From contig CM049313.1 of assembly GCA_026874595.1 (NCBI GenBank), forward strand, positions 35,429,159 to 35,493,158: 64,000 nucleotides of DNA, in the 5' to 3' direction. Origin of the DNA: Sipunculus nudus (lineage: Eukaryota; Annelida; Sipuncula; Golfingiida; Sipunculidae). The translations under genes and the position numbers were made by a program. Positions 3,782-55,771 of the stretch are shown here, piece by piece (positions within the stretch are counted from its first letter, which is position 1; every line of letters begins with the position of its first letter). Below the pieces are notes generated by a model. That model made no database searches. It saw only the letters and a list, made by a program, of their open reading frames with translations, and was not told the origin of the DNA.

Positions 3782-5040
3782 TCTTTTCTGTTGCCTGTCG
3801 TTATTTGATGAAATTGATTTATTTCAAATACTCTGGAGGTCTTAGGGAAAAGTCATTTCACGACAGCATATTCATAATGCATTTATTTCAGATATAGTTT
3901 CAGCACTTACTTAAGCCTTTTTATTTCTTGTAATCTCAAGTTAAGCCCAGCAGTGAAAAAGCATTTTTATATAACAAGCTCAATGGAAAATAAAGCTGTG
4001 AAGAAAGGTGTCATGTTTCTTTTTTTTTTAATCCTAGCTAACGGAACTTGTAGGGCATTCTCAGATGCATGTATCAGTGAAGTGGATTTTAATTCATCTA
4101 CCTTTTAAAAAAAATATGTGATTTCTGGCTCTCTCTGTGTATTTATAAATGATCTAAGGGTAATTCAGGTTAAAATATTATCTTATAAGGCCTCTGTGAA
4201 GGATTTATGAACTTGTTTATCAATAACATGCTGGTTAACACAGCAATTTTGACAAAGGGAAAACGTAACCTGAGGTGGCAGTTTATACATATGCGGAGGC
4301 GGAAAGGTCACTTGTAGCAAAAAGTAATTTTCGAAGCTTTGGCCTGCTGCCAGATGCCCTTGTTAATTTTTTTTTTTATTTTTGCGGGCCCCATATATTA
4401 TAAACATGTTGATATAAACAATACAAACAATGTGTGCGGTGATATCAACGTTTGCCGGCCTATTTTTATAAAAGCTCCAAGGGATTACCTTCAGTTTATA
4501 AAGGTCTAATAAGTGATTGGACCCCTTAAAGTTGTTTCGCTGACGTAAAGGGGACCTATTCGGATATCTAACATATAACTCCAGATAAAAATCGGTGAAT
4601 TGCTGGTTTTAACACGTATATTTATGTTTGTGCATGTATATAATAGATGTCCTTAAGTATTGGTGAGTCTGTGGACATGTTTCAGTACATATGCCACTAG
4701 CAGCAGTTTGCCAACCTTATGAAAATATGTATACAGTTCTTGAAATGGTCCGTCAGTTTATTTTCAAGGCCTGTGGGTCATGTTTTCCGATTCCTGGTTC
4801 AACTCCTGCAATGGTCTCAATGGTGAAATCCTAAATCCAGAAGGTTTAAGGTTCAGGAACTGTCGCCAGAGTCTGTTTCACATGAAATCAGTTTCTCCTT
4901 AAGTTTACGTAACTGTTGCCCTGAGACTACTTGACATGTACATATTCTGTAAGCTTACAAGTATTCTCTACACCCTTAGTAAATAAAAACCTTGGAATTA
5001 AAAAAAATGATGAAATGTTAAGGATTGAAATCAATTTTAT
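3782..5040. other. anonymous AT-rich DNA
   Basis: No ORF, structured repeat or RNA gene that I can support. Confidence 0.5.
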
Positions 5041-18796: not shown

Positions 18797-18868
18797 TGCG
18801 TCTTATTTTGTAGATGCACCGCAGTCCCAACAACGTTGGAAACTAGAGTGAAAAGTATATATTTAATC

Positions 18869-18904
<36 letters not shown>

Positions 18905-18910
18905 AAATAG
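18453..18910. repeat. cluster of (TA)n and short (CA)n tracts
   Basis: TA tracts at 18453-18494, 18763-18797 and 18871-18905, with a short CA tract at 18742-18753. No gene between them. Confidence 0.75.
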
Positions 18911-18971
18911 ATCTGTAGGTTTTCTGCAAGCAACAACTACTAGAGTGCTCTTTGGCATTTCACCAGAGCTT

Positions 18972-19143
18972 TATAATTATACAAAATGAAGAGGAGTCAA
19001 GTATTTTCAGACATTTTACTACTACGGAGTTTCGTGCAAGATGTTGTTGCACTCGTCAGGTAATGACGAGTGCAACAACATCTTGCACGAAACTACGTAG
19101 TAGTAAAATGTCTGAAAATACTTGACTCCTCTTCATTTTGTAT

Positions 19144-19150
<7 letters not shown>
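18972..19150. repeat. near-perfect inverted repeat, 87-bp arms, 5-bp loop
   Basis: Arms 18972-19058 and 19064-19150 match at 86 of 87 positions; the spacer is GGTAA. Each arm carries a hammerhead ribozyme core reading toward its outer end. The palindrome stops at a TA microsatellite on the right. Likely a rearranged Penelope-like element terminus or retrozyme dimer. Confidence 0.9.
19012..19065 (-). ncRNA. type I hammerhead ribozyme motif, full conserved core
   Basis: On the minus strand: stem I 5' strand CATTAC (19065-19060); core CTGACGA (19059-19053); stem II GTGCAA/TTGCAC with loop CAACATC (19052-19034); GAAA (19033-19030); short stem III ACTCC/GTAGT; cleavage triplet GUA ending at 19020; stem I 3' strand GTAAAATG with a two-base bulge (19019-19012). 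All core bases of the hammerhead are present; stem III has one mismatch. The plus-strand mirror copy (from 19064) has a perfect stem III (ACTAC/GTAGT) but A instead of C at the first core position. By established knowledge such short-stem-III type I hammerheads occur in animal Penelope-like elements and retrozymes and often act as dimers. Confidence 0.72.
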
Positions 19151-19176
<26 letters not shown>

Positions 19177-51214: not shown

Positions 51215-52642
51215 TTACATACACCAACCCGACTTGTGCTTTGGACAAGAACATTCTTCACTTAAGATGTCTTCTAGTTCAGGGTGTACAATGTCCTGCC
51301 AGTCTGGTCGCAGATGATGGCCGTTGATCACTCTCAGCTGCGGTGCTCCTTCGCGCAGGACTTCATACATACACGGGATGTTTACACAGTCTCTTGATAA
51401 CAGTGGGCCATTCCAAGGATGGCGAGCAATCTTGAATACCTCCAGAGAAGGAAGGTCCACTCCCTTCAGGTAGAAGCCACGGCATTGAGACACATCCAAA
51501 TATTTCAGATTTTCTGACCTAATCTGGTAGAACTGTAATCCACGGCCGCTTGGAGTCCACACCTCTAGAATCAGTCTCTCAAGGTGTGGGATATAGTGGA
51601 AAAGTTGGTCCAAAGATGACTGGTTTAATGTCTGGAACACAAAGTATCTTTCAAGGCCTAGTGTTTTCAGTTTGTCAAGACGGCTGAGACACTGCAGAGA
51701 TCGGACTGACCAATCAAATGGTAATGTCAGCTGCTCAACATTTGGTGTCATGGATGTGAATTTGTCAAAAAAGTTGACAAATTTGCGCTGCCTCTGACGG
51801 TGGCGATGCATGAACTCCTGACATTCACTGGATGACCAAACCATTTGTTCCAGCCAAAAAGGCCGTACTGGCGTTTCTTTCCAGTTCAAGTAAGCCATCT
51901 CAAGGTCTTCAAGGCGGCTACGGCTAAGGAAGCTATCCAGACCATCTAACCACCGGTCTTCTGGATCTCCAATGTCAAATGCAAAACAAAGTTTTTTGAG
52001 ATTTGGTCTAATTTGTTGTAAAAAAGTTAGATATTTGTTCATTTTTAGTCTGTAGTTTGCATAACACACCCTGCCACACACATGAGATCTTTTCTTACTG
52101 TGACACAAAGGGAAGGCTCGTAGATCTACATCATGCCACAAACAAGGCGACTTAATGAGACAGTTCCACTCCTGACAGACCTGACCTGCGATTCCTTTTT
52201 CACTTTGAGTGAGGAATCCAAAGATTTTCAATTTGCAGTCCTGAGGGAGAAATGCAAACGGGAACTTGTCGTCACCACATTTATTATGTCGCATACCTGA
52301 GAAAAAGGCTGGGAGCACTCTATTTTTTTCATTTTTTATAAATCTGTCCACAACATCAGCAGCATAATAATGACTGCAGTCATCCGTTCCAATGGACTGT
52401 TGAGCGTTTCCTTTGTTTGCTGCTACACACTCTGACACAGACCGGTTTCTTTTGCTGCATCCTCTCTTTGTGACGGATGGCTTTCGTGGACTGCTGAGAG
52501 CCCGTTTGACGGAGGCAGCTCCTACTTCATTTATATTCTCCATGGACTGGTTCTCCTCAACACATGATGTGAGAATACTGAAGTATAGACAGGCTGCTGA
52601 TGTCAAGCCAGCTAAACATTCACTTTCTGCTCTCTTCCTCAT
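51215..52642 (-). CDS. F-box protein with leucine-rich repeat-like C-terminal half
   Basis: A 475-residue open frame with no internal intron. The N-terminal ~120 residues are Ser/Lys/Arg-rich and look disordered, with a basic cluster near residues 46-68 that could be a nuclear signal. An F-box fits residues ~131-174: it opens FLPQDCKLKIFGFL and ends with a C-L-W-H-D-V-D-L segment, the usual Skp1-binding pattern. After it come irregular leucine-rich segments (such as LKTLGLERY, LERLILEVW, LKYLDVSQCRGF), then a short Cys/His tail (ECSCPKHKSGWC). By family knowledge this would be the substrate-recognition subunit of an SCF (Skp1-Cul1-F-box) ubiquitin ligase; the substrate is unknown. The start is placed at MRKRAE because a splice acceptor (TATTTTCAG) lies 10 bases upstream in the same strand, so the open frame farther upstream is intronic. 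At least one 5' non-coding exon is therefore expected in the divergent promoter region shared with the kelch gene. I cannot assign it to a named FBXO or FBXL orthologue. Confidence 0.87.
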   Translation of the reverse strand: MRKRAESECLAGLTSAACLYFSILTSCVEENQSMENINEVGAASVKRALSSPRKPSVTKRGCSKRNRSVSECVAANKGNAQQSIGTDDCSHYYAADVVDRFIKNEKNRVLPAFFSGMRHNKCGDDKFPFAFLPQDCKLKIFGFLTQSEKGIAGQVCQEWNCLIKSPCLWHDVDLRAFPLCHSKKRSHVCGRVCYANYRLKMNKYLTFLQQIRPNLKKLCFAFDIGDPEDRWLDGLDSFLSRSRLEDLEMAYLNWKETPVRPFWLEQMVWSSSECQEFMHRHRQRQRKFVNFFDKFTSMTPNVEQLTLPFDWSVRSLQCLSRLDKLKTLGLERYFVFQTLNQSSLDQLFHYIPHLERLILEVWTPSGRGLQFYQIRSENLKYLDVSQCRGFYLKGVDLPSLEVFKIARHPWNGPLLSRDCVNIPCMYEVLREGAPQLRVINGHHLRPDWQDIVHPELEDILSEECSCPKHKSGWCM

Positions 52643-52651
52643 TTCAATTAA

Positions 52652-52668
52652 CCTGAAAATATACAGTA
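52652..52668 (-). other. splice acceptor of the F-box coding exon
   Basis: On the minus strand a pyrimidine-leaning tract ending TATTTTCAG abuts GTTAATTG, 10 bases before the chosen ATG. It implies that the coding exon begins at 52652 and that the 5' UTR is spliced. A candidate donor (GTAAGT) on the same strand lies near 53339-53344 and another near 53709-53714. Confidence 0.6.
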
Positions 52669-53099
52669 ACACCGATTAAATAATAATTACAATAAACAAT
52701 TTCAATAAAAACAGAAATAGCATTGGCAAAACCAATAAAATATCCCATCCAAAGCAAATGAATAAATTAAGAAGAATTGCCCACTTTTTGGATTGTAATA
52801 GAATATAATATTCTTTTATTTTAAATGAAAAAAAATATGTCACTAGTCCTCATATTTTTAACAATAGCTCTACCCTCTTAGAAGTCTTCACACATACTGC
52901 CATGCCACAACTGTCTATCAGTGAACTATGCACTTTCATACTTTTTAACTCAAGGTGCAATTCATATCACTTGTACCCTGGATGCTTAAATGGAACACAA
53001 CAGGCAGACCAATAAATAGTAAGGACTCCCGATAAGGCACAAAGGACTCTGACATCCAGAGCCATATTATATATCTGATAAATTCATATTTATTTAAAG

Positions 53100-53960
53100 T
53101 TCGTGAACTGATAAAGAAACGATCTGCGGTTTATCTATGAAGAAACGCCGAGATAGCTAACGAGTCGAACCTAGCTGGGCGATCAGCTGATTTCAATCTG
53201 CGGCCATTTCCCCATTTGACGCTGACAAGCCCAACTATTTGAACCAGTTCCAACTGGTTTCCGTGTGGTTTCCCTATCCTCATCGACAATGAACTATACA
53301 GAAATACAAATACTAAAATACATGCAAGCTTTCATACTGACTTACTGTTAAATTTCACGACAGCCCGTTCATAATCTATCATGGTTTAGCACTGAGAGCG
53401 TCTTTAGTAGAACGCGCCGATCAGCTGATTTCAACCGCAAGCCATTTTGACGATCTGTAACTGTCTGTGAGCTTGCTTTAACCGCCAAGAACTGCCTAAA
53501 TTTGGAATGATACGACGAATTCTACAAAGTATGTGAATTTCTGTCCTCGTTCCTTCCGACTACACTCACGGAGGTTATTTTAAAATGCGCATATTTGTTT
53601 AATTTAATCGAATTGTACACAAAGGATCCTACCTGCTTCGCCCAGCTGACAGCTCACTTCTCAACGAAGCAACAACGGACGCGTCCGACTACACCCGAGC
53701 ATAAATTAACTTACTTTCCATATGGTGATGTCATGGTGCGCTCATTGATCAGGTGACAACAAAAATTGCTTTCAAAACCACTCAATACAACTAGATTTCT
53801 AATTGCTCCAAAATATAATTAATATATGGAATCATCATGGTTTATAAAAGCTTGTACAATAAAAACCTGAATTTTATTTGACCCCTCATGACCTTCCCAC
53901 AATGCATTTCTTTGCGGGAAATTGGAACCAAGATTGCGGGAACAAATTCCAAATATCGAA
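53100..53960. promoter_or_regulatory. putative divergent promoter between F-box and kelch genes
   Basis: The gap between the two head-to-head start codons is GC-richer than the surrounding DNA and lacks recognised repeats. A ~30-bp motif, GATCAGCTGATTTCAA followed by a GCCATTT box, occurs twice in the same orientation at 53181-53209 and 53419-53448. On the minus strand its end reads AAATGGC, like a YY1-type initiator element. TGATGTCA, a CRE/ATF-like site, lies near 53726. TCCCACAATGC at 53895-53905 fits the ZNF143/THAP11 core TCCCANNATGC, and GCGGGAAA at 53914-53921 fits an E2F site; both are just upstream of the kelch ATG. On the minus strand two short upstream ORFs precede the GTAAGT donor at ~53344, consistent with a 5' UTR exon. 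Transcription starts themselves cannot be seen. Confidence 0.55.
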
Positions 53961-54019
53961 ACAAGTCTTGGTTAGTTTTATACACTGAATATTGCTATTA
54001 TTTACTAAAACAGTACACC

Positions 54020-54236
54020 ATGGGTAATGAGGCAAGCCAACAGCTCAAGTACGGAGATCGTCTTGATAATGATGTGACGGTGAGCTGGGGACAATTTACA
54101 GGTAACCCTTTTGTTGGCCGGGATGGTCACGCCGCATGTGCGGTTGGCAATCATCTGTACGTGTTTGGTGGACTCAAAAAGGCTGAAGGCGAAATCGGAG
54201 CGTCCGAATCAAATGAACTGTTGTGTTTCAATGTTG
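54020..54236 (+). CDS. kelch-repeat protein, coding exon 1 (start, N-myristoylation motif, first blade)
   Basis: Exon 1 of a kelch beta-propeller protein whose reading continues through three further exons and off the window. The ATG sits in a strong start context (ACACCATGG). The first residues, MGNEAS, fit the N-myristoylation rule (Gly2, Ser6), so membrane attachment is plausible. Residues ~34-72 form the first kelch unit: RDGHAACAVGNHLYVFGG carries the diagnostic double glycine at 50-51. The exon ends after residue 72 in phase 1 at a GTAAGT donor. An upstream in-frame ATG at 53888 exists but would read through the promoter motifs and lacks the good context, so I rejected it. Kelch propellers mediate protein binding in proteins such as RABEPK and the KLHDC1/2 ubiquitin-ligase receptors; the sequence resembles these but I cannot name the orthologue. 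Confidence 0.87.
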
Positions 54237-55771
54237 GTAAGTATGATACTCCAATCTGGACTCAAGTGGATTTCTATGAGTGAGTAGGAAATGGATATAT
54301 AGTTGAAAATGTAGTGTTACTTTCTCATTTAATTTCGAATCTCGATTATATCTACATCTAAAATAGACTAAATTTATTTATCTATTTATTTTAGTTATTT
54401 AGCTAAATAAATAAATTAAAATTCTAAAAATACTTAGACTAATTTCACTTAATTCTACAAACTGGAACCTCTATTTCATTGATAAAAATGCTCTAATCTT
54501 TAACTGGTTTAGGTTTAATTAGCTAATCATCCATGAATAACACTTGATTATTTCATATTTGACAGAATAAGAAATAAAACCAGGCATAATAATATTAATA
54601 ATAATAAGGCTTTTTCACGGGTCTTGAATGACTTGATAATTTTGATGTAAGGATTATTGTATTTTCTATTCATTTTTACTTATTTCTAAATTTTCATTTT
54701 TAAATGAATACTTGAATGGATTTTTAAAGTCTTCATATTTTCTTAAATAATTATAAATTGGTAAATTTTGTAAAATTAAATTTTCATGTAATAATACAAA
54801 AACAGTCCCTGAAATCAACCCTCAAATGGTACCTAGGTAACTCATTTTTACAGATCTGTTTGCTCTGATATGAGTTTGGGTGCTATATGGTGACTATGAC
54901 TCTTCACACAGTAATTTAATACTTTAATGAATATCAGATATCCCACCTTTGATTGACACCAGGCAAGGTTTCGCTGCCAGCCAATCAAGGCAGTGCGGAA
55001 CAAAGCCCTTGTTAATGGCCAATTCATTAGTACCTGGTTTCTGATACACAAGCACTATCAGTAACATTACTCATAGTGCCTCTTCAGTCAAGTGGTCAGT
55101 CACCCAGATGGGCTGCTATATAATTGCCACCCTTAAATGAAGTTCATCCTCCATATATCATTAAAGCATGTCTACGTTTTATGTATTCTTATGAAAACAT
55201 CTTAATAAAACATTACTCATGGAAATTTTATACAGATTCCTATCATAATTTCTTGTCTATTCTTTTAAAGACTTTATTTTTTGGAGAGCATGCACATATA
55301 TATTAATTAAAAATATATCTGCATGTTTAAAACTTTTAAGCGATGTCAAAATCAGAATTCATAAAATTTTTAAATTGTTTTGTTTTCTGAATGTGTTAAA
55401 ATCTTGAAATTTAATAATGAAAATAGGCAAATGTATTTACTGATATATTTTTCAAAGTATTATTGCTGATACATTTTAAAAGAAGTAATGATTTGGCCTC
55501 TATAAAAATAAACAAGATTTAAAATTTTTGCAGAGAACAGTACTGACATTTAGTCCAATACTAACATAAATTTCAACACTAAGTCTTGGTTGTACTTTTT
55601 GATCTAGCAGATCATCTTCTTGAAACTCCAGATATGTTTTTGATTAATTTAAATGATTGGTTACAAATGAGGAGATGTATATTAAATATTTTATATGTTT
55701 TAGTACTGAGAGACAGCTTGTTAATTTAGTAAATATGAGTTAAATGCACAGTTATCATTCATGCATTAATT

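Follow-up and report, generated by a model that had tools for sequence, protein, structure and literature searches.

In the available part of its description, Poseidon_Ac (PAc) from Anolis carolinensis carries a single RT/EN open reading frame (ORF), uses AT-rich targets and has a hammerhead at the pLTR–ORF boundary, upstream of two internal sites at which reverse transcription starts, the stretch between the two sites being the 'tail' (PMC11167929). In vitro, both target strands were cleaved and extended and reverse transcription started internally at the two sites; hammerhead mutants still inserted, hammerhead cleavage depended on the element's protein, and the same part of the report states that no RNA-seq reads ended at the cleavage site (PMC11167929). 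Inverted pLTRs, head-to-head copies and junction palindromes are described for Pen2a/Pen2 of Adineta vaga, in which a 31-bp tail is optional on one of the inverted pLTRs (PMC3846280). As far as the available text of that report goes, inverted pLTRs are usual for Penelope-like elements (PLEs), Pen2a/Pen2 have very low copy numbers and some target-site duplications, self-priming on antisense RNA was proposed for them but not settled, and the Neptune group of PLEs has a Cys-rich stretch between RT and EN (PMC3846280). Excerpts of two further reports describe PLE hammerheads as usually minimal versions (PMC6155905) and place the type I hammerheads of metazoan non-LTR retrozymes in short repeats of 150–450 bp arranged in tandem (PMC7229834).

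The 64-kb stretch of Sipunculus nudus DNA analysed here (the window) contains a near-perfect inverted repeat of 179 bp at 18972–19150, as an earlier note on this DNA had claimed. Its two 87-nt arms (18972–19058 and 19064–19150) are 99% complementary and flank a 5-nt spacer (87 + 5 + 87), and the single arm mismatch is at 19027/19095. This palindrome is a doubly 5′-truncated insertion of a PLE with hammerhead-bearing pLTRs, located inside a (TA)n microsatellite (Table 1). Positions in the copies are given as q, the distance from RT start site 1, which is the end of the pLTR; site 2 is the end of the tail. The boundary between the tail and (TA)n is approximate, and the match to the full element reaches down to 18892. 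Copy A just retains the hammerhead core and the inner stems, and the plus-strand copy B ends at q87, just inside the core. The plus-strand core had been described in the earlier note as damaged at one base; C3 is indeed missing, although the cause is truncation at q87 rather than damage. The same note had called the head-to-head hammerheads an unusual arrangement; no support was found for a special function of the pair at this locus, and inverted pLTRs are usual for PLEs. Elsewhere in the window, a 486-aa ORF with an F-box domain (51215–52675, minus strand; Pfam E 1e-8) and an ORF with Kelch repeats (53882–54283, plus strand; Kelch_3 and Kelch_1 above cut-off) were observed.

Table 1. Coordinates of the PLE insertion and of the minus-strand hammerhead motif in the window.
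Feature	Position	Strand	Basis
(TA)n target microsatellite, left of insertion	18856..18909		TRF; family ends usually beside (TA)n with n at least 4
PLE 'tail', ~62-nt extension past RT start site 1, this end only	18910..18971	minus	family flank comparison
PLE copy A, tailed: pLTR 3′-terminal 94 nt, q1–q94	18972..19065	minus	family comparison
PLE copy B, tailless: pLTR 3′-terminal 87 nt, q1–q87	19064..19150	plus	family comparison
Head-to-head junction, 2-nt microhomology (TG)	19064..19065		overlap of copies A and B
Copy B partial hammerhead, without C3 and stem I 5′ strand	19057..19115	plus	own-family covariance model, 61.9 bits; truncation at q87
(TA)n target microsatellite, right of insertion	19147..19171		TRF
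Type I hammerhead motif (full core; inner stem I, stem II, stem III)	19012..19065	minus	core read, descriptor, covariance models
Stem I 5′ strand CATTAC	19065-19060	minus	read off palindrome sequence
Core CTGACGA	19059-19053	minus	read off palindrome sequence
Stem II GTGCAA/TTGCAC, 7-nt loop	19052-19047/19039-19034	minus	sequence
Core GAA	19033-19031	minus	sequence
Stem III ACT/AGT	19030-19028/19023-19021	minus	sequence
A17	19020	minus	sequence
Stem I 3′ strand GTAAAATG	19019-19012	minus	sequence
Predicted hammerhead cleavage site q49|q48	19019..19020	minus	core geometry; modal 5′ end of short family copies

On re-reading, the minus-strand motif contained everything that had been reported for it, namely the complete core, the stems and the cut predicted at 19020/19019. 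A hammerhead descriptor (CTGANGAG, stem II of at least 4, CGAAA, stem III of at least 2, NUH and stem I of at least 4) matched one site in the window, in two registers, and none in 300 simulated 64-kb sequences generated by a first-order Markov model built from the window, with both strands searched. The q49|q48 register is favoured because it fits 14 family 5′ ends, whereas q52|q51 fits one. The earlier note had also proposed a search with the Rfam type I hammerhead model (RF00163), with which the window motif scored 15.8 bits and L028, the single intact family copy scored, 16.1 bits, both below the gathering score of 34; nothing in the 64-kb window reached a gathering score in the Rfam search. 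The motif is therefore claimed as hammerhead-type and not as an Rfam member. A covariance model built from its own family gave 79.6 bits for the minus-strand motif (19007–19072). The invariant hammerhead core and three stems, open at stem I, are present in the family, with 95.5% of cells paired over seven distinct rows; no compensatory base changes were seen among these copies, which are too alike to be expected to show them. The 66-nt family hammerhead has a longer stem I, with CAGACA/UGUCUG outside an internal loop. Copy A of the window is without the native 5′ strand of this outer stem, and two of the six pairs formed by the replacement letters are non-standard.

RNA folding gave −4.6 kcal/mol for the hammerhead fold alone, compared with −59.7 kcal/mol for the hairpin at nt 125 and −143.3 kcal/mol for the full palindrome. 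A transcript of the palindrome is predicted to be trapped in the 87-bp hairpin from the moment the hammerhead emerges. Because this hairpin is predicted to form before the hammerhead is complete, no cleavage would be expected from full-length transcripts at this locus, which is an ordinary and, judging from the folding models, probably inert PLE insertion. The 5′ ends of the window copies lie at q92–94 and q85–87; thus, reverse transcription passed the cleavage site and that RNA was uncut there. The window copy itself is no cleavage footprint.

Searching the genome (1.43 Gb, 153 contigs) with the palindrome identified further palindromes; most matches were lone 94-bp arms, and many of these form inverted pairs. 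The spacing of the pairs read ranged from 76 bp to 3.7 kb, with 6.7 kb in L032, which contains an internal tandem repeat. Paired ends matching the arms, mostly 0.4–3.7 kb apart, enclose an RT-like ORF reading outwards. The Penelope-like association of the arms suspected in the earlier note was thus found among relatives in the same genome, and the type I hammerhead motif does belong to such an element, the arms being the pLTR ends of a family bearing RT motifs. In L032, the tandem copy, the pLTR with the hammerhead is followed by site 1 (TATAATTATA), the tail, the 5′UTR and the ATG of the ORF, and the counterpart of the window's tail is the 5′UTR stretch after the pLTR. The family shares with PLEs the occurrence of pLTRs both in tandem (L032) and inverted (head-to-head pairs), together with 5′-truncated copies, and its anatomy, as read from the sequences, is that of a PLE. 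The putative RT and GIY-YIG domains of the ORF are assigned from motifs read by eye, YRDDGLG (RT) and SYIG...R...H (GIY-YIG), with YRDDGLG and SYIGLTENSFKSRYANH found in the ORFs between the wider pairs. The ORF had no relevant match in Pfam, NCBIfam or PDB, its single-sequence fold was uninformative (pLDDT 33), and no relatives of the element were found in viral contigs. Between RT and EN lies a Cys-rich stretch (CNCRIPTECPMSGHC); its location ahead of the endonuclease suggests the Neptune group, a placement offered as a lead only. In L025, the element adjoins what looks like part of another, diverged PLE: an ORF at 4008–4346 (minus strand) that resembles its C-terminal endonuclease region (LSKYIWKLK).

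An exact pattern of the arm occurs at 99 places genome-wide, and all 99 were classified; allowing up to three mismatches raises the number to 198, and a few of these 99 additional copies were read. Excluded from the counts of 5′ ends were 10 of the 99 places, where the retrieved stretch ended before the copy did; C1:91074114, C7:59510284 and C7:59511036, where the alignment stops at q115–116 in an apparent subfamily indel; C12:6605091 (q134) and copies ending beyond q120; and L005, L013 and L016, which were found using the window as the query. The ranges of 5′ ends were read by hand, and the counts are the same whether L112B is read as 48–49 or 45–49. The modal 5′ end of short copies was q48, the G of GUAAAAUG and the nucleotide 3′ of the predicted cut, which accounted for 14 of 65 ends and occurred in 12 of 38 insertions; this set combines the copies found by pattern only with ten insertions retrieved by searching with two palindromes, one of which was joined at q48 and supplied six of the q48 insertions (7 of its 12 new ends were q48-compatible), the other having arms of 41/39 (1 of 8 new ends). 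The position is unambiguous at five ends (L040B, L071A, L106B, L109A and L110A). In the unbiased, pattern-only set (q28–q120), 6 of 45 ends were compatible with q48, with P of ~1e-4 for a uniform distribution over 28–120 (7e-5 in another run) and 3e-4 for one over 38–61; without L040, P was 0.004–0.008. The number of ends fell at the cut, from 14 at q38–49 to 2 at q50–61 (P 0.004). Moreover, the partner to which the q48 end is joined stops at a different position in 10 of the 12 insertions; therefore, the position belongs to the copy and not to the join. These copies suggested that the hammerhead really cuts the element RNA before it is copied into DNA.

The same ends might instead mark places where the RT pauses, either the three-way junction of the hammerhead or the A-run of GTAAAATG. 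Structure-induced RT stops are common, q48 sits at the ribozyme core, 2 nt before a stem III strand, and more 5′ ends cluster within the motif (q86–103). However, a moving RT would meet the outer stem I first, at q36–41, stem III is just 3 bp long, and the peak lies at the exact scissile position and is followed by the drop (14 vs. 2). Pausing is therefore a rather unlikely source of the q48 ends, although it deserves serious weight. A second, larger cluster of 5′ ends was found at the 5′ edge of the hammerhead (14 ends at q86–97 and 6 at q98–109, of 45), and a further cluster lies around q40. The cluster at q86–103 includes the window's own ends; transcription start, RT stop and trimming are candidate causes.

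Head-to-head insertions combine one tailed and one tailless end, directly in 39 of 40 cases and, in the 40th (L032), when the outermost ends are considered. Among the 30 pairs of the initial set, 29 had one tail (14 left, 15 right) and L032 was called tail/tail, because an internal tandem pLTR separates its true outer ends, of which one is tailed and the other tailless; all 10 later-found insertions had one tail. The tails of L003 and L071 are shortened, and the tailless end of L007 continues into element ORF sequence rather than flank, leaving its outer end unproven. Within the family, tracts of at least four TA units adjoin 49 of 56 tailed ends and 51 of 53 tailless ones; (TA)n on both sides would mask any target-site duplication. 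Of the 28 insertions that supplied the pattern-only 5′ ends, 9 yielded a single arm; head-to-head insertion is therefore not the sole product, and the one-tail rule is limited to pairs. One short arm each was found at L044, L060, L068, L069, L074, L077, L079, L023 and L085; several one-arm insertions have the 5′ end directly in (TA)n and are possibly single-strand events. In L016, L017 and L064, the partner arm is the tail alone or the tail plus ~4 nt, implying that reverse transcription stopped almost at once. The tailless arm of L006 (C16:25968005-25968144) directly abuts (TA)n and begins at ~q42 (GTAAAAT), which may be a third start position. The tailed arm of L053 (C3:58043779-58044042) consists of q1–q98, a few extra nt and q42–q101 in the same direction, an apparent template jump; the palindromic join that follows, at q101, has no loop. 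L100 and L101 (C17:10435079 and C17:10754142), 0.3 Mb apart, share an identical element junction and probably reflect a segmental duplication.

Haplotypes were compared between the two arms at 22 variable positions, each scored in 16 or more arms and showing the minor allele in 5 or more of them, and 21 of 30 insertions were informative. Concordance was observed in 191 of 192 cells, with one discordant, against 105.8 concordant cells expected under independence, linked positions not being independent of one another. The simplest reading of these matching haplotypes is that both arms would derive from one RNA, although gene conversion between the arms, or the use of several RNAs transcribed from one source locus, could have the same effect. 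The variant GAAGAGGAG, common to both window arms, was considered as a private marker of one event and rejected, because it also occurs at C1:74437398 among the matches listed and thus marks the source; the haplotype test was used instead.

Matching haplotypes would likewise result from fold-back self-priming, in which the 3′ end of the cDNA snaps back and copies itself and the tail of the second arm is lost through annealing of TATAATTATA to the (TA)n end. Priming of this kind, with an antisense template, has been proposed for Penelope palindromes, according to the part of the report available (PMC3846280). In such a process, the first-made arm should always exceed the other by a loop, whereas tailed arms both shorter and longer than their partners were observed, the arms of L040 measure 48–49 and 48, and arm differences reach 1.0 kb (L028) and 1.7 kb (L030). 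In addition, at least one base is shared at 12 of 25 short junctions, and the other 13 are blunt or carry inserts, without the shared bases that a primer needs; these junction types are a hand tally, in which L075 was entered with an insert of 0. Fold-back is thus an improbable origin for the pairs.

The interiors of the longer elements bear on their class. In L028, L027 and L030, for example, both halves are 5′-truncated copies of one sequence placed head-to-head, and in the longer elements the two halves represent a single outward-reading ORF, cut short at different points. Paired inverted ends around kilobase-long interiors would also suit a fold-back DNA transposon of the MITE type, with terminal inverted repeats and an accidental likeness to hammerheads, but this reading is barely compatible with such halves, with the tandem copy L032, with ends that differ by a tail, with RT-like ORF motifs and with a hammerhead core that is kept in most family copies and absent from controls; it was dropped, as the interiors are RT-like ORFs reading outwards. 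The palindrome also receives scores from several miRNA models (e.g., 43.2 bits for mir-3479 and 30.2 bits for mir-277), but a microRNA-type hairpin gene is scarcely credible and was rejected: these values fall under the gathering scores (79 and 43, respectively) and might be reached by a long perfect hairpin in any case, and the arms are dispersed repeats.

The reading we prefer, and consider probable, is a single PLE insertion in which both (TA)n target strands prime on one element RNA, with hammerhead cutting giving rise to the q48 ends. In this scheme, the RT/endonuclease would open both strands of the (TA)n target, and the two target 3′ ends would prime reverse transcription on a single element RNA, one at site 1 and the other at site 2. 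Since a single RNA has one site 1 and one site 2, each pair would receive one tail. In short copies, reverse transcription would start beside the 5′ pLTR and soon meet the RNA 5′ end or fall off, and the two cDNAs would then be joined. An RNA cut by the hammerhead would have its 5′ end 48 nt from site 1, which could explain the excess of copies ending at q48. Cleavage and extension of both strands and the two internal starts are taken from Poseidon_Ac in vitro; we infer the remainder. The more specific proposal, that two RTs act on the same RNA, one per start site and target strand, and that the hammerhead cuts the RNA in vivo and leaves genomic footprints, is tentative and held with slightly less than even confidence on the evidence of the genomic copies. 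The dispensability of the Poseidon_Ac hammerhead in vitro and the lack of reads ending at its cleavage site, as described in the available part of the report, count against this mechanism, as does the cluster of 5′ ends at q86–103.

The PLE, the hammerhead and the tail are already known. As far as the literature was searched, by title and abstract, the count of one tail per head-to-head pair and the cleavage footprint at q48 are new; no tail counts per insertion and no genomic 5′ ends at a PLE hammerhead cut were found, which is not proof of absence. If the proposal is true, genomes preserve footprints of ribozyme cleavage as copies with the scissile nucleotide at the 5′ end. The regularities in tails, haplotypes and scissile ends make the role of the hammerhead and the origin of head-to-head copies in PLEs countable in other PLE-rich genomes.

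In L1 twin priming, both target strands prime on the element RNA and inverted structures result, in which the 5′ part of one copy is inverted. The scheme proposed for the S. nudus family similarly has two target strands priming on the element RNA, whereas both PLE copies here begin at the 3′ end and point outwards. As in the available description of Poseidon_Ac, the hammerhead and pLTR are followed by the tail just before the ORF start (L032); in contrast to that description, the S. nudus family targets (TA)n, its own start site 1 is TA-rich (TATAATTATA), the tail lies in the 5′UTR and the cleavage position is the 5′ end of some short copies. Short repeats with type I hammerheads are shared with retrozymes as excerpted, whereas the S. 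nudus copies are head-to-head and part of an ORF-bearing element rather than head-to-tail and ORF-less. The Cys-rich stretch of the ORF occupies the place corresponding to that described, in the text available, for Neptune PLEs. The inverted pLTRs, head-to-head copies, one-sided tail and junction palindromes resemble those described in the available part of the Pen2a/Pen2 report, from which the S. nudus family differs in its 40 one-tail pairs and its very short, doubly truncated forms.
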